Shown here: piece after piece, positions 3,515 to 31,686 of the stretch | How positions within the stretch are numbered: position 1 is the stretch's first letter | How the letters are laid out: each line of letters begins with the position of its first letter | NCBI GenBank assembly: GCA_030532905.1 | Contig: JAUNKE010000025.1 | Coordinates: 1-32,504 of the forward strand | Source of the DNA: Peptostreptococcaceae bacterium | GTDB taxonomy: Bacteria > Bacillota > Clostridia > Peptostreptococcales > Filifactoraceae | DNA: 32,504 bases | Direction: 5' to 3' | Notes under the pieces: generated by a model | Told to the model about the DNA's origin: nothing | What the model saw: the letters and a program-made list of their open reading frames with translations, nothing else | Database searches by the model: none | Position numbers and translations under genes: made by a program

Positions 3515-4768
3515 TTAATCTTCCACGCGATATACATTCGCTCCCAACATCGAGAGCTTGCCTACCAAGTCAACATATCCTCTTTCGATATGATAAATAT
3601 TTTTTACGATGGTTTCTCCTTCTGATACCAGTCCTGCGATAACCAATGCGGCACCGGCGCGCAAATCGGTCGCCATGACTTCGGAACCCGTCAGCTGTTC
3701 TCTTCCTTCCACAATGGCTGATTTTCCATTGATTTCTATATTCGCTCCCATTCGGATAAGCTCGGGTACATTCATAAATCGATTTTCAAAAACCGTTTCC
3801 GTAATCGTCGATTTTCCATCCGCCATGCAAAGCATCGACATAAACGGCGATTGCATATCGGTTGGGAATCCCGGATGCGGCAAAGTTTTAATATTGGTCG
3901 GCAAAATTACTTCCGGCCCAATCACTCGTACGGTGTTTTCCATTTCTTCTACAATGCAGCCCACTTCGCGCAGCTTCGCAATAACCGGCTTGATGTGGTC
4001 AACGATGACATTCTCAACCGTCACATCGCCCTTGGTCATCGCCGCCGCCACCATGTAGGTTCCGGCTTCGATTCTATCCGGAATAACCGTATGCTCCACC
4101 GAAGTAAGCTCGGTGACGCCTGTAATTTTTATTGTATTGGTTCCCGCTCCCCGCACTTTTGCTCCCATCTTGTTGAGGAAGTTTGCAAGGTCGACGATTT
4201 CCGGTTCTTCCGCGACATTTTCAATAACCGTCGTGCCTTCCGCAAAGACCGCGGCCATCATAATATTTTCGGTCGCGCCGACGGATGGGAAGTCCAAATA
4301 GATTTTGCTTCCTTCCAATTTGTCCGTTGTCGCTTCGACATAGCCATGCTCGGTTTCAACCTGAACTCCGAGCTGACGAAAACCTTTGATATGCAAATCA
4401 ATCGGTCTTGTTCCGATTGCACATCCGCCCGGCAAAGAAATTTTCGCTTTATGAAATCTGCCGAGCAACGAGCCCATCACGAGAAAAGATGCTCGCATCT
4501 TGTTGACTAAATGATATGGTGCTTCGGTTTCTTTAATTTCGGTCGTATCGACGGTCAATGTTTCACCGTCGTACTGCACCTTCGCGCCGAGATAACGAAG
4601 TAAATCACTCATGACATTGACATCCCGAAGATTCGGAACGCTTCGGATAACGCTCACGCCATCCACCAATAGAGTTGCGGCGATAATTGGAAGCACCGCA
4701 TTTTTTGCACCATTTATTTTAACATTGCCCTTGAGGGCGCCACTTTCTTTTACTACAATATATGCCAA
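3515..4768 (-). CDS. murA: UDP-N-acetylglucosamine 1-carboxyvinyltransferase
   Basis: A 417-residue cytoplasmic enzyme for the first committed step of peptidoglycan synthesis: enolpyruvyl transfer from PEP to UDP-GlcNAc. Seen: the N-terminal [25 protein letters not shown] (uridine-nucleotide/lysine motif) and the active-site loop [15 protein letters not shown] with catalytic Cys116, the residue attacked by fosfomycin. The C-terminal [19 protein letters not shown] is typical of the family. Because Cys is present rather than Asp, fosfomycin sensitivity at the target is expected (inference). Length matches the family. It is followed after 12 bp by mreB. AGAGG lies about 12 bases upstream of the start and an extended -10 promoter lies further up, so the pair probably forms its own transcription unit. 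Confidence 0.97.
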
Positions 4769-4807
4769 AATTTATTCCTCTCCCCAAAAACTATTTCTCA
4801 AAAATTT

Positions 4808-4816
4808 ATTATATCA
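4808..4816 (-). promoter_or_regulatory. Extended -10 promoter for murA-mreB
   Basis: TGATATAAT on the minus strand, about 40 bases upstream of the murA start, is a perfect extended -10. No good -35 is seen at 17 bases, which is tolerated with TGn. It sits in the only gap (60 bp) between murA and the upstream transporter gene. Confidence 0.45.
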
Positions 4817-4828
4817 CAAAACTTAATT

Positions 4829-5941
4829 TTACAAAACCTTTTGCTCTGATTTCCTCGAAACAATTTTTTTGTGCATCCAGCGATTGATAAGGATTGAAAT
4901 CAATTTGTAAATCGGAACGGAAACGAGCATTCCGACCATGCCGAAAAAGCCTCCGCCGATTGCAATCGCGAGCACAACACCGAATGGCGAAACACCGACC
5001 TTGTCGCTGAGCACCTTCGGCCCGATAATATTTCCATCGACCTGCTGCAATACAAAAATGAACAGAACGACCCACAATGCTTTTTTCGGGTCAAGAAGCA
5101 AGGTCAGCACCACCGCCGGCAAAGCGCCGATGACCGGACCAATATAGGGAATCATATTAAAAATTCCTACGATCAAGCTCATCAACATCGCATAAGGTGC
5201 ACCGATGACGCTCAGTCCGACATAGCAAAGCACCGCGACAATCGCCGAGTCGATTACTTTACCGACAAAATAATCTTTGAAAATCTGGTCGCTCAGCTCC
5301 ATAAATTTCATAATGCCCGACGATTTGCTTTCACCGAAAAGAACCAGAATAAATCGCTCAGCGGAGCGCTGAAAACTTTCGACATCAAATAAAATATACA
5401 TTGAAATGATGATGCCGAACAGCAATTTGAACAGCCAGGATGTAACGCCGATCAAACCGGTGATGACCGAGTTGAGCGCGGTATTCAAAAAGCTCAGAGA
5501 CCATTTTGAAAAGTTTGAACTCATCGACTCGATATAGCCTTTGACCTGCACATTCTCAATCAGCTTTAACTCATTGGTCAGCTTGTTGATGAGAAGCTGG
5601 ATTTTGGCAATATAAATCGGACTTGCCTGAACGATATCCGTCACATTCTCCACGATGACCGGCACGACCATCAATCCGAAAAGCCCCATCACACCGAAAA
5701 ACACCAAATAGGTCAGCGCAAATGCCCATTTTCTTTTGAGCTTCAATTTATTTTCCAAAAACCGCATCAGTCCCAACAGAAAATAGGTGATGATAAATGC
5801 CCAAATGAATGGAGTCATAATCACCTTCAATTTATTAAATGCGCCCAGAAACACTTCATAGTTCTCAACCAATTTGTGCGCGATAATCAACACCACGCCC
5901 GCAATAATCAAACCCGAATATTTTTTCAAACTCTCTATCAT
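4829..5941 (-). CDS. AI-2E family transporter (PerM-like)
   Basis: A 370-residue integral membrane protein of the AI-2E exporter (PF01594/PerM) family. Hydrophobic helices are clear at the N-terminus (LIIAGVVLIIAH, VIMTPFIWAFIITYFLLGLM, WAFALTYLVFFGVMGLFGLMVVPVI). A soluble amphipathic middle of about 80 residues is followed by further helices and the family signature IPYIGPVIGALPAVVLTLL near residue 265. The family includes the E. coli autoinducer-2 exporter TqsA and sodium/proton antiporters, so the true substrate is open. It starts 14 bp after the SCIFF maturase stop and is probably the last gene of a ybaK-scfB-transporter operon. There is no luxS nearby to support an AI-2 role. Confidence 0.88.
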   Translation of the reverse strand: MIESLKKYSGLIIAGVVLIIAHKLVENYEVFLGAFNKLKVIMTPFIWAFIITYFLLGLMRFLENKLKLKRKWAFALTYLVFFGVMGLFGLMVVPVIVENVTDIVQASPIYIAKIQLLINKLTNELKLIENVQVKGYIESMSSNFSKWSLSFLNTALNSVITGLIGVTSWLFKLLFGIIISMYILFDVESFQRSAERFILVLFGESKSSGIMKFMELSDQIFKDYFVGKVIDSAIVAVLCYVGLSVIGAPYAMLMSLIVGIFNMIPYIGPVIGALPAVVLTLLLDPKKALWVVLFIFVLQQVDGNIIGPKVLSDKVGVSPFGVVLAIAIGGGFFGMVGMLVSVPIYKLISILINRWMHKKIVSRKSEQKVL

Positions 5942-5955
5942 ACCCGCTCCTCGTC

Positions 5956-7332
5956 TTACACATTCTCCAGCTCATCCATTTTGAGCATCGCTTCGACCAT
6001 AATCGCACATTCGATTCGTTTTTTCTGCATTTCACAACCGTCTTTGTACGGCTTTTTTATATCATTGTTAAAATTGTAAGCGTTGGCATGGCAGCCGCCC
6101 GAGCAATAAAACTTCGCCCAACAGCTTTGACAATCTTCCTTCGTCGTCACATCCGTCGCCAAAAAATCATCGACGATTTGTTTCGGAAACTCAATTTTTT
6201 CATCGAACAGATTGCCCAATTTGAATTCGTCCTTCCCGACGAACTGATGACATGGGAAAATATCCCCATCCGGTGTAATCGCCAAATATTCGATGCCCGC
6301 ACCGCAGCCGGAAATTCTTTTTATCGCGCATGGCCCTCCGCTCAAATCAATCATATAGTGGAAGAATTTGAATCGAGGATCCTGCTTTCGTATATCCAAA
6401 TACTCCAGGGCAAATTTTTCATATTCCGCATTGACCTTCTCAATATCCTCCGAGCGCAGCGCATATTCATTTTGCTCATGATCGACGACCGGCTCCATCG
6501 AAGTGAGCTCAAAGCCCAAATCGCGATAGTGAAGAACATCCTTGCCGAAGTCGATATTATTTCGCGTAAAAGTCCCGCGAATATAATAATATTTGTCTCC
6601 GCGTCCCTGCACGAGCTTTTGGAACTTCGGAACGATGATGTCATAGCTTCCCCGTCCGCTTATGGTCGGTCGCATCGCATCGTTGACCTCTTTGCGTCCG
6701 TCCAAACTCAGCACGACATTGTGCATGTGCTTGTTGATGTATTCGATTTTTTCATCGTCGAGCAAAATGCCGTTGGTCGTGATGGTGAAACGAAAAATCT
6801 TGTTGTGCTTCTTCGCTTCTTCATTCCCGTATTCAACCAACTGTTTGACGACGCCGAAATTCATCAGCGGTTCGCCGCCGAAAAAGTCGATTTCGAGATT
6901 TCGACGATTTTTGGAATTGGCAATCAGATAATCAATCGCTTTTTTTCCGACTTCAAAACTCATCAGACCTTTTGGCCCGTTGAATTCGCCCTGACCCGCA
7001 AAACAATATTTACAGCTCAAATTGCAATCATGCGCCATGTGCAGACACATCGCTTTGACAATCGGATTGCGCCCTTTGAAAGTTTGAGACGCCGGAAAAA
7101 TATCGTCGCTGAAAAGCAGCTCCATCTTTTCCAACTCCTGCAATTCTTCATAGGCGGTGCGAATATCTTCTTCGCTGTGTTGCGGCAGTTGATGAATAAT
7201 CTCATCCAATGCCTTCTCTTTATAAAAATCCAGCACATCATAGGCGACATCATCGACTACATGCACCGAGCCGGAATTGACATCCAGCAAAAAATTATTG
7301 TTATTCTGTCTAAATTTATGAATCAACCTCAT
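5956..7332 (-). CDS. scfB: SCIFF peptide radical SAM maturase
   Basis: A 458-residue radical SAM/SPASM enzyme of the type that installs thioether (sactionine-like) crosslinks in the six-cysteine SCIFF peptide of Clostridia. The N-terminal MRLIHKF...NNNFLLDVNSGSVHVVDDVAYDVL is the peptide-recognition (RRE-like) region of this family. The radical SAM cluster site is CNLSCKYC (Cys103, 107, 110). The SPASM region has CGAGIEYLAITPDGDIFPCHQF and then CQSCWAKFYCSGGCHANAY plus a late GCEMQ for auxiliary clusters. I chose the start at 7332 because AAGGAG lies 5-6 bases upstream and the family begins at this point; an in-frame ATG at 7389 would overlap ybaK and add an atypical tail. Unusually, no SCIFF precursor gene lies next to it. 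Neighbours are ybaK (53 bp upstream) and an AI-2E-family transporter (14 bp downstream). Confidence 0.9.
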   Translation of the reverse strand: MRLIHKFRQNNNNFLLDVNSGSVHVVDDVAYDVLDFYKEKALDEIIHQLPQHSEEDIRTAYEELQELEKMELLFSDDIFPASQTFKGRNPIVKAMCLHMAHDCNLSCKYCFAGQGEFNGPKGLMSFEVGKKAIDYLIANSKNRRNLEIDFFGGEPLMNFGVVKQLVEYGNEEAKKHNKIFRFTITTNGILLDDEKIEYINKHMHNVVLSLDGRKEVNDAMRPTISGRGSYDIIVPKFQKLVQGRGDKYYYIRGTFTRNNIDFGKDVLHYRDLGFELTSMEPVVDHEQNEYALRSEDIEKVNAEYEKFALEYLDIRKQDPRFKFFHYMIDLSGGPCAIKRISGCGAGIEYLAITPDGDIFPCHQFVGKDEFKLGNLFDEKIEFPKQIVDDFLATDVTTKEDCQSCWAKFYCSGGCHANAYNFNNDIKKPYKDGCEMQKKRIECAIMVEAMLKMDELENV

Positions 7333-7385
7333 ACATTCTCCTTCGTTCTCATTATATCCAATTTCGGAATTTTTTTCCATTCTTT

Positions 7386-7865
7386 TCAATGGACTTCATT
7401 CCACGCTTTGCAAATATCCACCCATTCCACCGCCTTGCCGTAAAAATACAACTCATCCGGAGTCAGTTCAATCGCCGAGCGCTCGCTGCCGCATGCCGGA
7501 AAAACCGTCTTGAATCGCTTGAGTGAAATATCGGTATAGACTCGTACATTTTGAGGATTGGCAAAAGGACAGACGCCACCGATTTCGTGACCTGTCAAAT
7601 GCTCGATTTCTTCAAGCTTTACCATTTTCGCCTTCTGTCTGAAAAATCGTTTATATTTTTTGCTGTCAATTTTGGCATCGCCTGCCGTCACAATTAAAAT
7701 GCAGCCGTCCTCAAGCATAAAGGACAGCGTCTTGGCGATTCGCTGCGGCAATACGCCCAAACGCTCCGCAGCAAGCTCGACTGTCGCACTCGAATCATCG
7801 AATTCGAGCACCTTGTTTTCCATATTGAATTGAGCAAAATATTTTTTTACATTCTCTAAAGACAT
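7386..7865 (-). CDS. YbaK/EbsC family aminoacyl-tRNA editing protein
   Basis: A 159-residue cytoplasmic protein of the YbaK/ProX/EbsC editing-domain family, which hydrolyses mischarged Cys-tRNA(Pro) or Ala-tRNA(Pro) in trans. Seen: VELAAERLGVLPQRIAKTLSF near residue 28, LIVTAGDAKIDSKKYKR with the conserved lysine area near 60, and the GHEIGGVCPFANPQNVRVYTDISLKRFKTVFPACG block near 90-125, which is diagnostic. Length is normal. It is the first gene of the minus-strand operon that continues into scfB. The link to SCIFF maturation is only positional. Confidence 0.9.
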   Translation of the reverse strand: MSLENVKKYFAQFNMENKVLEFDDSSATVELAAERLGVLPQRIAKTLSFMLEDGCILIVTAGDAKIDSKKYKRFFRQKAKMVKLEEIEHLTGHEIGGVCPFANPQNVRVYTDISLKRFKTVFPACGSERSAIELTPDELYFYGKAVEWVDICKAWNEVH

Positions 7866-22783: not shown

Positions 22784-24718
22784 TTATCCCGCCAAATCAT
22801 TTTCGCTCAAATTCGGATCCATAATCTTAAATACGCCTTCATCAATCTTGATGTCCTCTCCGTCTTTGACAAACAGATACAAATCTCCTTTTTGGGAATC
22901 CTGATCGTAATCTTTGAGATAGAGGACATCGCCGGATTGTGTCAACAATATATTTTCACTGAGCTTTTCCCCGACCTCGTGCAACTTCCCTTCGCTATAC
23001 AAGAACACATCTTGGATTCTCGTGTCATAGTCCACATTTTTAACGACCAAAAAGTCAATCTTGCCGTTCCGATGATTATAATGATATGCAAAACCGTCCT
23101 CAATCAACTTCTCCTGATTTCGATAAAGCACCGATTCTTTCTCGCTGAGATATTTGGAATAAGTGACGCTACCGTCTTCCAATATGTTGTGACTGTATGC
23201 GCTGATTCCTTCGGCATAAAGTTTCGGCTCACCGATTTCTTTTCCGTTGATATCGATGGAATACAAATTTTGCACTCTTCCATCATCTCTCGTTTCATCG
23301 GTGAAGAACACTTTATCCGTTTTTTTCGTGAAAACAAAGGATGGCGAAAGCTCTTCCATCTCAAGTCCGTCTTTGAGTACAATCGGATTGCTGACGGTAT
23401 CTCCGATTGCTATATAATGTTTGGTCGCTTTTGCATGAATGAAATCGATTAAGCCTTCCAACTCATAATAATCAATAACGATATCCGACAATTTTATTTT
23501 ATTTTCGCCCGGCTCGCTGAAACTTCCGAATGCAAATGCCGTTTTATCCTGCTCGAACAGCGGATAATATGCGTATCGAACACTCCATTTCATAATATTT
23601 TTGCTGATGAGCTTGCTCTCTTTTCCGTCAAAATAATGAAGTGTATAATTCGGCACCGTAATTTTTTCTTTATTTTCCACCTTGTGACGAAGCTCATCAC
23701 GAATCGTCCGCATCGAAAAAGCTCTTTCCAGCTTCATCAAACGCTCATATTCCTCATAAGCCTTTTCATATTCCGCGTCACTCTTGAAATGTTCGCGATT
23801 CGGGAACTCCGGCGCTTTTACATATTCCAGTTTTTTGTCGCTTTCGACCATATCATCTTCGATATAGTCGGATGCGTTGAATTCCATCGTCTCTTCGGTC
23901 GTATAGTAAATTTCACCGGAAGGAAAAACTTTCAGAATCTGCTCGAATCCTTCCAGCACCAATTCTTTTTCTTTGCCGATTTCCTTCTTGAACAATCTAT
24001 CTCCGACGATGTAGTAGAATGTTGAGAGGTCGTCGGTATTGTATGCGACGAAAATATAATCATCCGCCAGTTTTTCTCTCTCCTTGCCGACTTCCTTGAA
24101 ATATGCGCGCTGATTCTCCATCTGATAAATGATTCGTTTTCCGTCATCCGACGCCATAAACTCAAATACATTTTTGGAAATATTTTCCGTTTTTTTGTCC
24201 GCCATCGTCAAATGAGACAATCGATCCGAATCCTGCTCGATGAAATAAATGTCGTTGAAATCTTTTCCGCCTTTGTAGGAATAAAGATTCTCTCCGATTT
24301 CCACCGGCTCGCTCAAACCCTTTTCTCCGATTTCACGATAGTACAGCGTGTATTCCAAAAAATCCTTTTTAACAAAATCGTCCGGATAAATGATTTTCTT
24401 GCCGTCCGCCGAAACCTTCGTCAGTACACTGTCCAGCGGATGATACTCGTATTCTTCGGAAGTCAAACCCAATACCGCATTGGAAGTAATCTCCTTCGGC
24501 TCGATTTTATCCAATTCGGTAAAATGCATTTCCCCGTCTTTTACATAGATTGCAAAGCGTGGCTCTTTTTTTGCCTCCTGCGATTTTTCGCATCCGACGG
24601 CAAAAATCATCAGCGAGCAAAGCATCGCTGCCGATATTTTTTTGAAATGAGAAAAAAGTCCGCGTCGATTTTCAAAATTCCTCAATTGCGCCTCCTTACA
24701 AGTCATTTTATTTCGCAT
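22784..24718 (-). CDS. Large lipoprotein of unknown function, beta-propeller-like
   Basis: Not recognised by family. The product has a signal sequence FKKISAAMLCSLMIFAVGC with a lipobox Cys and no other membrane segment. The 600-residue mature part has many repeated short units with the rhythm of WD/TolB-like propellers (DGKKIIYPDDF, FNDIYFIEQDSDRLSHLTM, DDGKRIIYQM, DKVFFTDETRDDGRVQNLYSIDING, GDVLYLKDYDQDSQKGDLYLFV). A charged, probably coiled-coil, insert lies near residues 320-365 (EKAYEEYERLMKLERAFSMRTIRDEL). I give ATG 24718, which has AAGGGAG upstream. A TTG at 24685 has a stronger AAGGAGG and would give a more usual signal peptide length, so it is a serious alternative. It probably stands on the outer face of the membrane. 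Confidence 0.8.
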   Translation of the reverse strand: MRNKMTCKEAQLRNFENRRGLFSHFKKISAAMLCSLMIFAVGCEKSQEAKKEPRFAIYVKDGEMHFTELDKIEPKEITSNAVLGLTSEEYEYHPLDSVLTKVSADGKKIIYPDDFVKKDFLEYTLYYREIGEKGLSEPVEIGENLYSYKGGKDFNDIYFIEQDSDRLSHLTMADKKTENISKNVFEFMASDDGKRIIYQMENQRAYFKEVGKEREKLADDYIFVAYNTDDLSTFYYIVGDRLFKKEIGKEKELVLEGFEQILKVFPSGEIYYTTEETMEFNASDYIEDDMVESDKKLEYVKAPEFPNREHFKSDAEYEKAYEEYERLMKLERAFSMRTIRDELRHKVENKEKITVPNYTLHYFDGKESKLISKNIMKWSVRYAYYPLFEQDKTAFAFGSFSEPGENKIKLSDIVIDYYELEGLIDFIHAKATKHYIAIGDTVSNPIVLKDGLEMEELSPSFVFTKKTDKVFFTDETRDDGRVQNLYSIDINGKEIGEPKLYAEGISAYSHNILEDGSVTYSKYLSEKESVLYRNQEKLIEDGFAYHYNHRNGKIDFLVVKNVDYDTRIQDVFLYSEGKLHEVGEKLSENILLTQSGDVLYLKDYDQDSQKGDLYLFVKDGEDIKIDEGVFKIMDPNLSENDLAG

Positions 24719-24781
24719 AAAATTCTCCCTTCCGTTACGATTTGATTTTCCTGCCATTGAGATTGCAACTTCGTTTTTATT

Positions 24782-25274: not shown

Positions 25275-25727
25275 TTATTTTCCGGTATGCATCACATTGT
25301 CAATTTGAGTTTCAATCGTAAACACATTGCCTTTATATTCCACTTGATTGTTGCCGATAAATTTGATACTTTCCTGTAATTCGTCCGCCGTAATTTCTTT
25401 GGTAATCGGATTATATTTCGGATTTTTATAATTTGCGACCGGTGCATCGTATTTCATCCCTTGTGGAAAAATATCCGCTCCGCCCTTTTGCTTCGCTTCT
25501 TGACGCATCGCTTCGACATCCCTCACTTCAACAATGGAAATCTCATCCATGCCGAATGTAATCAAATCGCCGAACATTTTCGTGTCCAAAAAAGCATCTT
25601 CCGTTTTTTCGAATCGTTTGTGGAAATACATGCTTTTCGAAAACTTCCCCTGATAAGTATTTTTGTAGCCGATAAAGCAGACCGCCAAAACCAAAATTGC
25701 CAACAATATAAATTTTGACCTTTTCAT
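25275..25727 (-). CDS. Small membrane-anchored protein, probable BlaI-regulated target
   Basis: Not recognised. The 150-residue protein begins MKRSKFILLAILVLAVCFIGY, an uncleaved anchor or signal sequence (a Cys at 17 is not in a good lipobox). A mainly hydrophilic, lysine-rich outer domain of about 125 residues follows (FGDLITFGMDEISIVEVRDVEAMRQEAKQ, then strands VEYKGNVFTIETQIDNV). AAGGAGG is placed well before the ATG. The gene is divergent to a BlaI-like repressor gene, and its likely promoter carries the same type of palindrome between -35 and -10 as the repressor gene, so it is probably the effector controlled by that repressor. The long leader, about 140 bases, shows no recognised motif. 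Confidence 0.75.
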   Translation of the reverse strand: MKRSKFILLAILVLAVCFIGYKNTYQGKFSKSMYFHKRFEKTEDAFLDTKMFGDLITFGMDEISIVEVRDVEAMRQEAKQKGGADIFPQGMKYDAPVANYKNPKYNPITKEITADELQESIKFIGNNQVEYKGNVFTIETQIDNVMHTGK

Positions 25728-25873
25728 AAAATCCTCCTTAATTCGAAGTTAAATTTTCATACGATGATACGAATTCCTTTCTGAATTTGAAAATAGAAAT
25801 TCATCGCTCAATACCTGATGCGGAAAAATCCACATTTGTTACTCCAAAGCAAAAAACATTTTCTATCTTTGAT

Positions 25874-25901
25874 TGCATATCGTAATATATTACAATATCA
25901 A
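25874..25901 (-). promoter_or_regulatory. BlaI-type operator and promoter, anchored-protein side
   Basis: The palindrome GTAATATATTAC (25882-25893) lies 2 bases after TTGATA (25896-25901, minus strand) and overlaps the spacer to TATGCA (25874-25879, 16 bases). The placement copies that of the operator in the repressor gene promoter. The -10 is weak. Confidence 0.6.
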
Positions 25902-25958
25902 TTTATCATAACAAACAATATCCGTCAATACATTTTCTTATCAAAATTCATTTTGTTG

Positions 25959-25987
25959 TTGACATCGTAATCGATTACAATTATTAT
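25959..25987 (+). promoter_or_regulatory. Promoter with BlaI-type operator for the repressor-protease genes
   Basis: TTGACA (25959-25964), 17 bases, TATTAT (25982-25987). The perfect palindrome GTAATCGATTAC (25967-25978) fills the spacer, so a bound repressor would block RNA polymerase. The 309-bp gap 25728-26036 holds this, the sister operator and AT-rich sequence only. Confidence 0.75.
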
Positions 25988-26036
25988 ATTCTTATAGAAC
26001 AATGGATATCAGGAAAAAAGATATCGGGAGAATAAT

Positions 26037-26417
26037 ATGAAATCGAAATTACCGAAAATCAGTGACCGCGAAAAAGATGTGATGTCGATTTTGTGGCACA
26101 AAAACGAGCCGATGGTTGCGTCGGCGATTGCAAAAGAAAAAGAAGGGCTCAGCATTCACACGGTACAGAATGTTATTAAAAAGCTGCTTGAAAAAGAATA
26201 TGTCGTCGTAAACGATATCGTCTATAGCGGGACGGTCTTTTCGCGTCAATATCGCTATGTCGTCACCGCCGAAGAATATGCCGCCGAGCAATTACGAAAT
26301 GTAAGCAGTAATGCATACCAATTTTCCACGCTCAATTTCGTGGATCTTTATGCCGGCGATGATGAAGAGATTTGGAAAGAGCTCGAGCAGCTCATTCGAG
26401 AGAGAAAGAAAAAATAA
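26037..26417 (+). CDS. BlaI/MecI/CopY family repressor
   Basis: A 126-residue winged-helix repressor of the Penicillinase_R family. The start KLPKISDREKDVMSILWHKNEPMVASAIA (4-32), then GLSIHTVQNVIKKLLEKEYVV (recognition helix, 38-58) and SRQYRYVVTAEEYAAEQL (69-86) follow the family pattern; the C-terminal dimerisation part is present. These repressors bind palindromes as dimers and are cleaved when a partner M56 protease is activated. It probably controls its own operon and the divergent anchored-protein gene through the two GTAATNNATTAC sites. It is followed by the M56 gene after 44 bp. Confidence 0.9.
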   Translation: MKSKLPKISDREKDVMSILWHKNEPMVASAIAKEKEGLSIHTVQNVIKKLLEKEYVVVNDIVYSGTVFSRQYRYVVTAEEYAAEQLRNVSSNAYQFSTLNFVDLYAGDDEEIWKELEQLIRERKKK

Positions 26418-26461
26418 AGCAAGGCACCCGTTTTGAATCGGATGCACAGTCGAGGTGAAGT

Positions 26462-27622
26462 ATGGATTTTGCATTGATACTCAGCAACAGCTTTTTTTGC
26501 GGCATCGCCATTATTTTGTTGTTCCCCTTATTTCGACATCCCAAATTTTTAACCTGTTGGAAAGGGATTCCCTTTTTTACGATTTTGCTCGCTTGTTTGG
26601 CAAAACTCGTCATTCCCGTCGAATTTGAATTCACAAAAGTGTTGCCGTCCGAGAAAATCCTGACGACGATTCGAACTTTGGAATACACCGAAATCACAAA
26701 TGGATTGACGGTGCAAACCGCGCTGTTCTTCACCACTTTTGTGTTGACGATATGTTTCATTCTCTGCTCCGTCTATGACTATCGCAAATTCAAAAAAGAA
26801 CTGGACGCTATCCCGCCTGCGAAGGATGGCATGCTGGACGAAATTCTTTTGACCCTCTGCGAAGAAAAAAATATAGCCGAAATTCCGAAGCTCATCAAGA
26901 CGAGCGAAAATATTCCTCCATTTATCATCGGTCTGCGACATCCTGTTATCGTATTGCCGGATGATTTGTCGTATGAGGAAATTCGATTTGTCCTACTGCA
27001 CGAATTAGAGCATTTGCGAAATCAACATTTTATTCTCAAGCATCTGGTCGAAGTGCTCAGCATTATCTTTTGGTGGAATCCGGTGATGTGGTCATTGCGC
27101 GGCGAAATCTCTCGAGCCATCGAGGTGCAAGCGGATACATACGCTTTACAAAATTGCTCCGATGATGAGCGAATTGAATATGTTACCACTTTGCTCAATA
27201 TTTCGCAGAGAACAAAAAGTCCGAAACGCCCGATTCTATCATCTTCGTTTTTCAGCGATAAATCGGACGGCATTCGCTATCGAATGGCATCCATTTTGCG
27301 ATTTGACGAGGGCGGCGAAAACGGAATTCGAACTTTAATCGTTCCCCTTCTGCTCTCCGTTTTGTTTTTCGGACTGTCTTTTTGCTATACCTTTAATGCC
27401 TATTACACCAACAGTCCTGAAACTGCCGGAACTTTTGCCATCTCAAGAAACAATGCGTATTTTCTAAACATCGACAATCAATACCATTTATATGTCGATG
27501 GGAAAAAATTATCCACGATGGAAAAGATTCCGGATGACTTTTCATATCTTGCGGTCTATGATGCGCATCCGTCCGGAAAAAATGTTTTTTTTGAAACGAT
27601 TGAGTCGCTTTTGAATCCATGA
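26462..27622 (+). CDS. M56 family membrane metalloprotease (BlaR1-like), short sensor
   Basis: A 386-residue BlaR1/MecR1-type integral membrane zinc protease. Helices lie near residues 5-24, 36-53, 86-106 and 291-311. The cytoplasmic zinc site is HELEH (180-184) with the third ligand Glu221 in EVQADTYAL, and WWNPVMW lies between them. It would cleave or inactivate the BlaI-like repressor upon a signal. Unlike BlaR1 (about 600 residues), the outer part after the last helix is only about 75 residues and has no penicillin-binding SxxK/KTG domain, so the signal is not a beta-lactam by the known route. GAGGTGAAG precedes the start. No frameshift remnant of a sensor domain was recognised behind the stop; that DNA is low-complexity repeat. 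Confidence 0.88.
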   Translation: MDFALILSNSFFCGIAIILLFPLFRHPKFLTCWKGIPFFTILLACLAKLVIPVEFEFTKVLPSEKILTTIRTLEYTEITNGLTVQTALFFTTFVLTICFILCSVYDYRKFKKELDAIPPAKDGMLDEILLTLCEEKNIAEIPKLIKTSENIPPFIIGLRHPVIVLPDDLSYEEIRFVLLHELEHLRNQHFILKHLVEVLSIIFWWNPVMWSLRGEISRAIEVQADTYALQNCSDDERIEYVTTLLNISQRTKSPKRPILSSSFFSDKSDGIRYRMASILRFDEGGENGIRTLIVPLLLSVLFFGLSFCYTFNAYYTNSPETAGTFAISRNNAYFLNIDNQYHLYVDGKKLSTMEKIPDDFSYLAVYDAHPSGKNVFFETIESLLNP

Positions 27623-27704
27623 CGGATTTTTGGAAAGGAAAACAACGAGCGGATATAATCATGAAATAGATTCCGAGTTTGGAGTTTTGAGGTTGAGATT
27701 CTGT

Positions 27705-28029
27705 GCTTGTAGTTCCGATTATGGTATGAGATCGATTCTGTGCTTGTAGTTTTATTTGTTGCTGTGCGATTGTTCATGTGCTTGGCTTGCGGTTTTGAAA
27801 TTGATTGTGTGGTTGTAACTTCGTTTTGTTTGTAGCTGTGAGATTTATTGTGTAGTTGTAGTTTTGTTTATGGCTGTGCGATTGTTCATGTGCTTGTGGT
27901 TGTAGTTCCGGTTACGGTATGAGATTGATTCTGTGATTGTAGTTTTGTTTATGGCTGTGCAATTGTTCATGTACTTGGGTTGTGTGTGAGATTGATTGTG
28001 TGGTTGTAACTTCGTTTTGTTTGCAGTTG
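27705..28029. repeat. G/T-rich mosaic tandem repeat region
   Basis: About 325 bp in which two copies of a roughly 192-bp block lie in tandem (for example AGTTCCG at 27711 and 27904; TTGATTGTGTGGTTGTAACT at 27801 and 27992). A sub-unit with GCTGTGCGATTGTTCATGTG occurs three times (27761, 27873, 27953), at steps of 112 and 80 bp. The plus strand is strongly rich in G and T. No gene with a ribosome site reads through it. 27623-27704 has nothing recognisable. Confidence 0.75.
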
Positions 28030-28114
28030 ATACACAAAGAGAAGAAACGGCATCGAAAAACAAATCCTTCTGCAATCGAAAGCCTTTTACAATATAGAGT
28101 TTGGAGAATTGACT

Positions 28115-28321
28115 ATGAAAAAGCTTCTTATTATATTGCTGCTCGCCGTCAGCATTCTTTACTTCGGTTTTGACAAAGGACAAAATAAAGCAATGATGGA
28201 CGCATCCAGCTCCGGCGATGTTTACGAGTGGTATTACAAAGAAATCGACGGCACATTGTATAAAAGAAAATTCAACACGACTACAAAACAATGGGCAAAT
28301 TATTGGATAAAGATACAGTAG
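28115..28321 (+). CDS. Small secreted or anchored peptide, 68 residues
   Basis: Not recognised. It begins MKKLLIILLLAVSILYFGFDKG, a clear signal or anchor sequence, followed by about 45 hydrophilic residues (SSGDVYEWYYKEIDGTLYKRKFNTTTKQWANYWIKIQ) rich in Tyr, Trp and Lys, with net positive charge at the end. GGAGAA at 28103-28108 is correctly placed for ATG 28115; the earlier in-frame TTG at 28109 was not chosen. It sits between two repeat clusters, downstream of the BlaI/M56 genes. A role as secreted peptide, toxin or signal is possible but unsupported. Confidence 0.6.
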   Translation: MKKLLIILLLAVSILYFGFDKGQNKAMMDASSSGDVYEWYYKEIDGTLYKRKFNTTTKQWANYWIKIQ

Positions 28322-28497
28322 GAGAATCCATGAAAGTTTTTCTGCAAAGAGATAGTCTATGAAAGGTTTTCTGTAAACAGAATTTTAGTCTATGAAGGTT
28401 TTCTGTAATAGGAGTTTATGGTCTTCTATGATAAAAGAGTCTATGAAGGTTTTTCTGTAAATAGAATTTTAAGGTCTTTTATGACAAAATATTAAAT
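28321..28497 (+). repeat. Short direct repeats containing micro-ORFs
   Basis: Four copies of ATGAAGGTTTTTCTGTAA-like sequence start at 28330, 28359, 28392 and 28443, usually preceded by GTCT and followed by a variant of ATAGAATTTTAAG; two more degenerate copies are near 28428 and 28481. Several copies are complete mini-frames (for example MKVFLQRDSL at 28330-28362, which has GGAG 5 bases upstream, and MKGFL at 28359-28376). The stop of the first overlaps the start of the second as ATGA. Confidence 0.65.
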
Positions 28498-31103: not shown

Positions 31104-31406
31104 TTATTCTGATTTATAAATATCTCCCCTTGCTCCTATTTCAATTACCAAAATAACAAGCTTTTGATTTATAACACGAAAAATGGCACGATAATCTCCA
31201 ATTCGTAAACGATAAATGTCATTATACTCACTATCATGATACTTTTTAATATCATATTTATGAATTATCTGTGCTCTGTTATGAGATGACAAATTTTCAC
31301 TAAGCTCATCAAATGCCTTTCTAAATTTTATTGCAATCAAGCGATTCTTCTTCGTAAACTTGATAGCTTTTTTTGAATACTGAACTTCATATCTATTCAT
31401 TTTCAT
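31104..31406 (-). CDS. RelE/ParE-superfamily toxin
   Basis: A 100-residue small basic protein with the RelE/ParE pattern: YEVQYSKKAIKFTKKN (6-21), KFRKAFDEL, then YRLRIGDYRAIFRVINQKLVILVIEIGARGDIYK (65-98), which is the strand-rich core. RelE-type members cleave mRNA on the ribosome; ParE-type members target gyrase; the IGDYRAIFRV segment favours the RelE/YoeB-like side. The start overlaps the antitoxin end by 14 bp (or 8 bp if the third residue, Met, is used), typical coupling. The region is more AT-rich than its neighbours, suggesting acquisition. Confidence 0.88.
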   Translation of the reverse strand: MKMNRYEVQYSKKAIKFTKKNRLIAIKFRKAFDELSENLSSHNRAQIIHKYDIKKYHDSEYNDIYRLRIGDYRAIFRVINQKLVILVIEIGARGDIYKSE

Positions 31407-31686
31407 CTTTAGCTAAGCTCAAAACTTCTTCAAGAGAAATCGTGACAGCATCCTTTCCCGATTTGTCCAAATTCATAACTTCATATTCCGCCTGTTCTTT
31501 TTCACTCACATAGTCACAGTATTTGTTCAGATACTCCGACAAATCCAAACTTTCATCTTCATCAATTTGAGATAAAACAATCTCTCGTACATATTGAGAA
31601 AAAGTTTTGTTCAGTGAATGAGCATGTTTACTGATTCGCTCCGCTTCGCTTTCAGACAAATGAATCATCTTTTTTACTGTATTCAT
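31393..31686 (-). CDS. Antitoxin of the RelE-type pair (ribbon-helix-helix)
   Basis: A 97-residue acidic protein. MNTVKKMIHLSESEAERISKHAHSLNKTFSQYVREIVLSQIDEDES (1-46) reads as a ribbon-helix-helix DNA-binding domain, with an acidic C-terminal tail (EYLNKYCDYVSEKEQAEYEVMNLDKSGKDAVTISLEEVLSL) that would wrap the toxin. It is longer than many RHH antitoxins (70-85). A GGGAGGAG ribosome site precedes the ATG. It probably represses its own promoter. Confidence 0.8.
   Translation of the reverse strand: MNTVKKMIHLSESEAERISKHAHSLNKTFSQYVREIVLSQIDEDESLDLSEYLNKYCDYVSEKEQAEYEVMNLDKSGKDAVTISLEEVLSLAKDENE

Follow-up and report, generated by a model that had tools for sequence, protein, structure and literature searches.

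A 32,504-nucleotide stretch of DNA from a Peptostreptococcaceae bacterium (contig JAUNKE010000025.1, assembly GCA_030532905.1; the whole stretch is referred to as the window) carries what is, as judged from its sequence, a bacterial gene switch composed of a BlaI-type repressor and an M56 membrane protease without the usual antibiotic-sensing domain. The genome consists of 132 contigs (2,475,478 bases) and is ∼96% complete. The protease gene is followed by the gene of a 68-residue peptide, and the M56–peptide pair, mostly preceded by blaI, is conserved. An earlier note on this DNA had described the switch as a circuit with a 150-residue anchored protein, encoded divergently from blaI, as its output; the conserved blaI–M56–peptide unit is the more interesting object. 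The peptide may well serve the stub-tailed protease as an outer sensor part that is encoded by a gene of its own, a tentative reading based on 23 places, at 20 of which an intact blaI adjoins M56 in front.

Among the loci of the nearest M56 relatives, those of genomes G005 and G051 carry a small N-terminally hydrophobic protein behind M56 that resembles the window peptide; G005, from the window's own family, is a metagenome-assembled genome labelled Filifactor alocis (locus L044). A census of M56 genes was compiled with 110 rows (30 loci from one set and the best 80 of 167 from another, a few loci being present twice). In all 13 rows classed as short-tailed with a tail profile (12 distinct loci including the window) a peptide gene follows M56, and it is absent from the available DNA of the 97 other rows. 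The latter comprise 85 long tails, three complete short tails without a hairpin (two of which are a single Peptostreptococcus canis locus, L009/L045), one tail cut by a contig end and eight rows without a placeable fourth membrane segment. Strong peptide matches outside the seed loci (E of 3.9e-9 or better) were obtained at twelve places, every one with an M56 gene directly upstream: G124, G266, G082 and G103 among 297 genomes, G540 among 398, and G912 (two places), G853, G930 (three places) and G961 among 391. G124 is census locus L068 and hence enters both counts, so that the distinct units number 23 including the window. The gap between M56 and peptide genes is at most 65 base pairs (bp), or the genes overlap, in 21 of the 23; the exceptions are the window and L044 (298 bp). 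Genomes with two or three peptides (Desulfosporosinus SRJS8, Clostridium Marseille-P2415, G912 and G930) have one M56 gene to each.

This linkage bears on one alternative, an ordinary BlaI/M56 unit in which the protease senses by its own loops, the 150-residue protein is the output and the peptide a passenger. M56 proteins with varied outer domains are indeed common, the long tails of 85 of the 110 rows being of other kinds, and in the window strain an operator pair links the 150-residue gene to blaI; peptide linkage in 13 of 13 rows and at 12 of 12 further places is, however, hard to square with a passenger, and the 150-residue family occurs without the unit in the same genus, which leaves this alternative improbable.

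Weaker peptide matches consisted of seven places at E 0.001–0.008 and five at E 3e-4 to 9e-4, mostly long frames, stops or partial matches, and one in G372 (E 5.9e-5) was judged false, as the locus read contained no M56 gene. The P. canis locus (L045, genome G013, 3546–4990) is a close BlaI/M56 relative that has neither a hairpin in its M56 tail nor a peptide gene behind it. Genome G930 holds three complete blaI–M56–peptide units (L162, L163 and L164); a gene near L163 is presumably relaxase-like.

Of 911 candidates, 244 proteins matched a profile built from 15 peptides at E 0.01. Among the 120 family members listed none has a Pfam domain, and the names, where shown, are hypothetical or uncharacterized; a scan of 15 members against Pfam gave no match at E 0.02 or better, PF09683 included. 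The family is unclassified, with an N-terminus predicted to be of the export type, and the peptide is presumably exported. The conserved core lies near the C-terminus and reads approximately W-x-[YF]-[RK]-x(3)-G-x(3)-[KR]-R-[LQ]-[WY]-[SN]-x-[ST]-x(3)-W-x(2,4)-W. In 54 aligned peptides Arg51, Trp60 and Trp64 (window numbering) are invariant and Trp39, Gly46 and Leu52 nearly so; the window peptide has Lys at position 52. Its predicted structure starts with a helix at the N-terminus and leads through a loose linker to a beta core, with a mean predicted local distance difference test score above 90 over residues 41–68. A fold search gave no match at E 0.001 or better with this model, which is too small to inform, and the peptide profile gave three matches among PDB sequences, the best at E 0.39. 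Peptide P0006 had no match in 72,556 plasmid records.

The protease (386 residues) matched PF05569 with 99 bits (cut-off 31) and contains the zinc motif HELEH...E. Its family profile aligned with Staphylococcus aureus BlaR1 (8exs) at E 1.2e-19, and six fold matches at E 0.001 or better were obtained with the predicted model, all of them BlaR1 entries (8exq at E 2.4e-6). Residues H180, E181, H184, E221, D225 and Y240 are invariant in 22 M56 sequences and R274 is present in at least 90% of them; they are in register with BlaR1 H201, E202, H205, E242, D246, Y261 and R294 as given in PMC9834060. The loop ahead of R274, ILSSSFF, recalls the BlaR1 autocleavage site Ser283-Phe284. Four hydrophobic segments were identified (residues 1–25, 28–47, 81–107 and 285–314), which leave as outer parts a 33-residue loop between segments 2 and 3 and ∼72 residues past segment 4. 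The short outer part of about 75 residues without a penicillin-binding domain that the earlier note had described was thereby borne out; consistently, the NCBIfam blaR1 model scored 81.9 against a cut-off of 400, and a C-terminal penicillin-binding sensor domain was not found. For this tail, whose structure the note had proposed to predict, a small beta-meander was obtained with strands between residues 332 and 367. As for the beta-lactamase that the note had missed nearby, a genome search limited to family PF13354, with PBP2a and further beta-lactamase families outside its scope, gave no match.

The repressor (126 residues) belongs to the BlaI family by its match to PF03965 (36.7 bits, cut-off 22.6); a BlaI-type repressor with an M56 protease, as proposed earlier, is supported. 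A profile of four BlaI family sequences covers MecI over its full length (E 4.5e-6); the single sequence had no match at E 0.01 among PDB chains. Asn100-Phe101 is in register with the BlaI cleavage pair and aligns with MecI LNF. Three other BlaI genes are present in the genome, each near one of three other M56 matches, which lie in longer frames.

The palindromes GTAATATATTAC and GTAATCGATTAC were recovered where the earlier note had placed them (Table 1) and differ over 16 bases only at the two central positions (TCGTAATNNATTACAA). A genome search for the pattern GTAATNNATTAC, which the note had suggested, returned two exact places in 2.48 Mb, both within the 309-bp interval between the 150-residue gene and blaI, and the reversed control pattern returned none in the 132 contigs. 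With the 16-bp form, two exact places, one with a single mismatch (C37:331, within an open frame) and many with two or three mismatches were present among the matches listed. When only the window was counted, three sites with at most one mismatch were seen against 1.08 expected, a number reached by 11 of 100 shuffles and not beyond chance; a pair of dyads this similar in the 309-bp interval was reached by two of 100 shuffles. Weight was therefore put on genome-wide uniqueness and on the dyad pair.

According to the earlier note, each palindrome lay in a promoter spacer two bases downstream of a −35 element. This applies to the blaI promoter, where the palindrome begins two bases past the −35 of TTGACA-17-TATTAT. 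On the opposite side the proposed −35, TTGATA, is present in the sequence, but the promoter scan lists no −10 for it; the opposite promoter that the scan does list, TTGACG-17-TAAATT, would place the palindrome at about the transcription start and not in the spacer. Under either placement, binding of the repressor would presumably shut off both promoters, and the earlier note's pair of matching operator-like sites, directed at the two transcription units, was supported. The half-sites are in outward order (GTAAT..ATTAC), and the inward TACA..TGTA operator was not found.

To assess operator conservation, the upstream DNA was read in 15 further loci, namely 14 units and that of P. canis; 14 of these were scored, with L047 omitted, and the eight units found later stood outside the motif scoring. 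A perfect TGTAATtttATTACA in L061 and a one-mismatch site in L039 stood out, and the remaining scored loci did not. Pairs of similar dyads reached by at most five of 100 shuffles were present in the window, L137, L050 and L039 (14 intervals); the pair in L039 resembles one long inverted repeat. A candidate operator-like site before the peptide gene was disregarded, its best match having three mismatches in 12 positions.

In the mechanism that we infer, dimers of BlaI would occupy both palindromes of the window strain and repress the blaI–M56 operon as well as the divergent 150-residue gene. The exported peptide would dock to the outer face of M56, formed by the short tail and by the loop that joins membrane passes 2 and 3. 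An extracellular change that shifted this docking would turn on the inward-facing zinc protease, which would then cut BlaI between Asn100 and Phe101, so that both promoters would be freed. The earlier note had counted a displaced sensor domain behind the M56 gene of related strains as evidence against its own circuit, and the peptide is the best candidate for such a missing sensor part. The note had also listed it as a possible joint output of the circuit. It is the conserved partner, and is best read as a candidate sensor part instead.

Several observations weigh against this assignment. The figure of 13 of 13 rows is partly circular, since the census profiles include those positive loci; that of 0 of 97 is not circular, though some of these rows have little or no downstream DNA. 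The unit is scattered and uncommon, strong peptide matches having been found in seven of 297 genomes of the order, five of 391 of the class and two of 398 of the phylum, with the own genome counted each time. The window is itself untypical in that its peptide begins 492 bp past M56. The gene blaI is truncated in L047 and lies ∼2.6 kb off in G961; in G540 the contig ends. By a loose motif the window peptide lacks an A-x-A-like signal peptidase site, unlike the other 21 checked, and may therefore stay anchored. Asn-Phe occurs in only seven of 20 BlaI proteins of these units, and 11 of the 13 others have Leu at P1'. The palindrome is not conserved between units, the window type not being common to most of the other units scored. 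Lastly, the peptide and the M56 outer loop co-vary (partial r 0.43), and peptide distances track M56 windows of approximately residues 31–89 and 281–339 beyond the rest of the protease; co-variation was rejected as evidence of contact, because BlaI, which counts as a control since it is not expected to touch the M56 outer loop, yields the same profile. The co-varying windows are probably better tracers of descent. As the test failed its control, the evidence for docking is the linkage.

The same linkage would be accounted for if the peptide were a feedback inhibitor in the manner of CpxP, made by the circuit and bound to the outside of the protease to keep it off until titrated away. The position of the peptide gene behind blaI and M56, apparently in one operon, fits such a role. 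We consider this reading doubtful.

As to the 150-residue protein, no Pfam or NCBIfam family scored above its cut-off. Homologues were found in two of 58 other genomes searched (once in G001 and twice in G002, both of the same genus) and twice more among database proteins. Beside those of G001 and G002, no M56 gene, BlaI match or palindrome was present in the loci read. One metagenome contig of 45,553 bases carries a homologue with 84% identity, and a contig of again 45,553 bases an 84% homologue of M56, so that one sister species probably has both genes together. The co-occurrence that the earlier note had proposed to look for was thus seen in part: the same-genus homologues have no blaI alongside, and one metagenome contig likely holds both genes. 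The BlaI/M56 pair, its missing sensor and its two operator-like sites stand from the circuit as first drawn, and the 150-residue protein as its general, defining output is not supported. The gene is a local partner, and is likely to be regulated in the window strain. The relatives in G001 and G002 (L040, L041 and L042) occur among varied small anchored or exported proteins of ∼80–190 residues, in one genome at two places.

Divergent genes were compared for 15 of the 23 units (L046, L062, L048, G082, G103, G853, G961 and G540 lack either a divergent first gene or available sequence upstream). By a hydropathy rule nine of the 15 divergent neighbours are predicted to be exported, the figure for other frames of these loci being 11 of 76 (Fisher p 0.0005); without L047, with its truncated blaI, the count is eight of 14 (p 0.0013), and any signal-like start is found in 11 of 15 against 20 of 76 (p 0.0008). 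The genes differ from unit to unit and include a subtilase, a C39-like peptidase, orphan proteins and a lactococcin-972-type bacteriocin; an ATP-binding cassette transporter (L044) and three other frames have no export-type start by the same rule. The bacteriocin (L061 of Clostridium sp. Marseille-P2415, 531–3205, minus strand; 24.6 bits, cut-off 22) is divergent to a blaI–M56–peptide unit, has a DUF1430-like membrane protein just under the cut-off as its neighbour, and its upstream region includes the perfect site of L061. Shared control of the divergent genes is a lead and not a finding, because the distances range up to 1,065 bp.

These neighbours lend some weight to a reading of the peptide as an output or effector, which would be exported to act on the wall or on neighbouring cells and would, like the divergent exported proteins, be made once BlaI has been cut. 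Predicted export is enriched among them, one is a bacteriocin, and the peptide is short, with many Trp and Arg residues. The divergent genes vary by unit, however, whereas the peptide core changes little between distant genomes; in the neighbourhoods read, the peptide has no regular companion gene for export or immunity, and it is tied to one type of M56 tail. An effector role is held to be less probable than that of a separate outer sensor part.

In BlaR1, as set out in PMC9834060, the outside sensor moves the inside protease, and an extracellular loop occupies the sensor pocket until a beta-lactam displaces it. The window unit resembles the S. aureus BlaI–BlaR1 and MecI–MecR1 systems in repressor family, protease fold, four hydrophobic segments, HExxH...E with accessory residues, the Asn-Phe cleavage pair and the divergent gene arrangement. 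It differs from them in having neither a penicillin-binding sensor domain nor a PF13354 beta-lactamase, in its ∼72-residue tail and added peptide gene, and in its outward half-sites, theirs being inward. Other described BlaI regulons are likewise small and local, with paired inverted repeats and operons of BlaI, BlaR1 and hypothetical proteins, but use different motifs (GTCTAT and GACTAT). CopR–CopY, as described in PMC7253601, shares a related repressor family acting on palindromes and differs in being controlled by copper, with an inward TACANNTGTA operator and metal rather than protease control. Lactococcin 972 bacteriocins (PF09683) are, like the peptide, small exported proteins, and the L061 unit is divergent to such a gene, but none of the 15 M56-linked peptides scanned matched PF09683. 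No published description of a blaI–M56–peptide unit turned up in the literature searched, in which coverage of subscription journals was thin.

Gram-positive peptide-pheromone three-component systems encode a small exported peptide together with a membrane receptor and a regulator. Compared with these, the receptor here is a protease and not a histidine kinase, the regulator is a repressor that is likely cleaved, and the peptide has a conserved core in place of a strain-specific one. It is conceivable, if rather unlikely, that M56 proteins of this type are receptors for an exported peptide that is encoded in the same operon and signals between or within cells through inward cleavage of BlaI. 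If so, this would be peptide signalling without kinase or importer, scattered across Clostridia, that times when exported proteins, a lactococcin-972-type bacteriocin among them, are released. Many M56 proteases lack a beta-lactam sensor. For one structural class of them, the strictly linked partner gene makes the question of what they respond to testable via the peptide and the promoter, and a likely workplace is gained for the small proteins of this unclassified family, whose N-terminus is of the export type.

Table 1. Features of the switch locus (window positions).
Feature	Position	Strand	Basis
Gene of 150-residue N-terminally anchored protein, divergent from blaI	25275–25727	−	Open reading frame; hydrophobic segment 1–26
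Palindrome GTAATATATTAC, operator-like, promoter region of 150-residue gene	25882–25893		Pattern search
Promoter-like TTGACG-17-TAAATT with TG, facing 150-residue gene	25900–25928	−	Consensus match only, 9/12
blaI promoter-like TTGACA-17-TATTAT, overlapped by palindrome	25959–25987	+	Consensus match only, 11/12
Palindrome GTAATCGATTAC, operator-like, in blaI promoter spacer	25967–25978		Pattern search
BlaI/MecI-type repressor, 126 residues	26037–26417	+	PF03965 profile
Codons Asn100-Phe101, in register with BlaI cleavage site Asn101-Phe102	26334–26339	+	Profile alignment to MecI; known site from PMC9834060
M56 membrane metalloprotease, 386 residues, BlaR1-type without penicillin-binding domain	26462–27622	+	PF05569 profile, BlaR1 matches
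Zinc motif HELEH, residues 180–184	26999–27013	+	Alignment
M56 short outer tail, residues 315–386; small beta-meander predicted, strands within 332–367	27404–27619	+	Predicted structure; hydropathy
492-bp gap between M56 and peptide gene, with degenerate direct repeats	27623–28114	+	Sequence scan
Promoter-like TTGGAA-18-TATAAT in M56–peptide gap	27630–27659	+	Consensus scan
68-residue peptide, N-terminal hydrophobic segment, W..Y..G..R..W..W family	28115–28321	+	Open reading frame, profile, hydropathy

A scan of the plus strand of the gap between M56 and the peptide gene (27623–28114) gave no terminator-like site. Degenerate direct repeats flank the peptide gene at 27702–28029 and 28325–28471, and the former set occupies much of the gap. 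Elsewhere in the window, a 657-residue protein (22784–24757, minus strand) had no Pfam or NCBIfam match at E 0.1. A radical SAM protein (5956–7389, minus strand) is presumably a SCIFF-type peptide maturase, and two overlapping small genes (31104–31686, minus strand) resemble a toxin–antitoxin pair.

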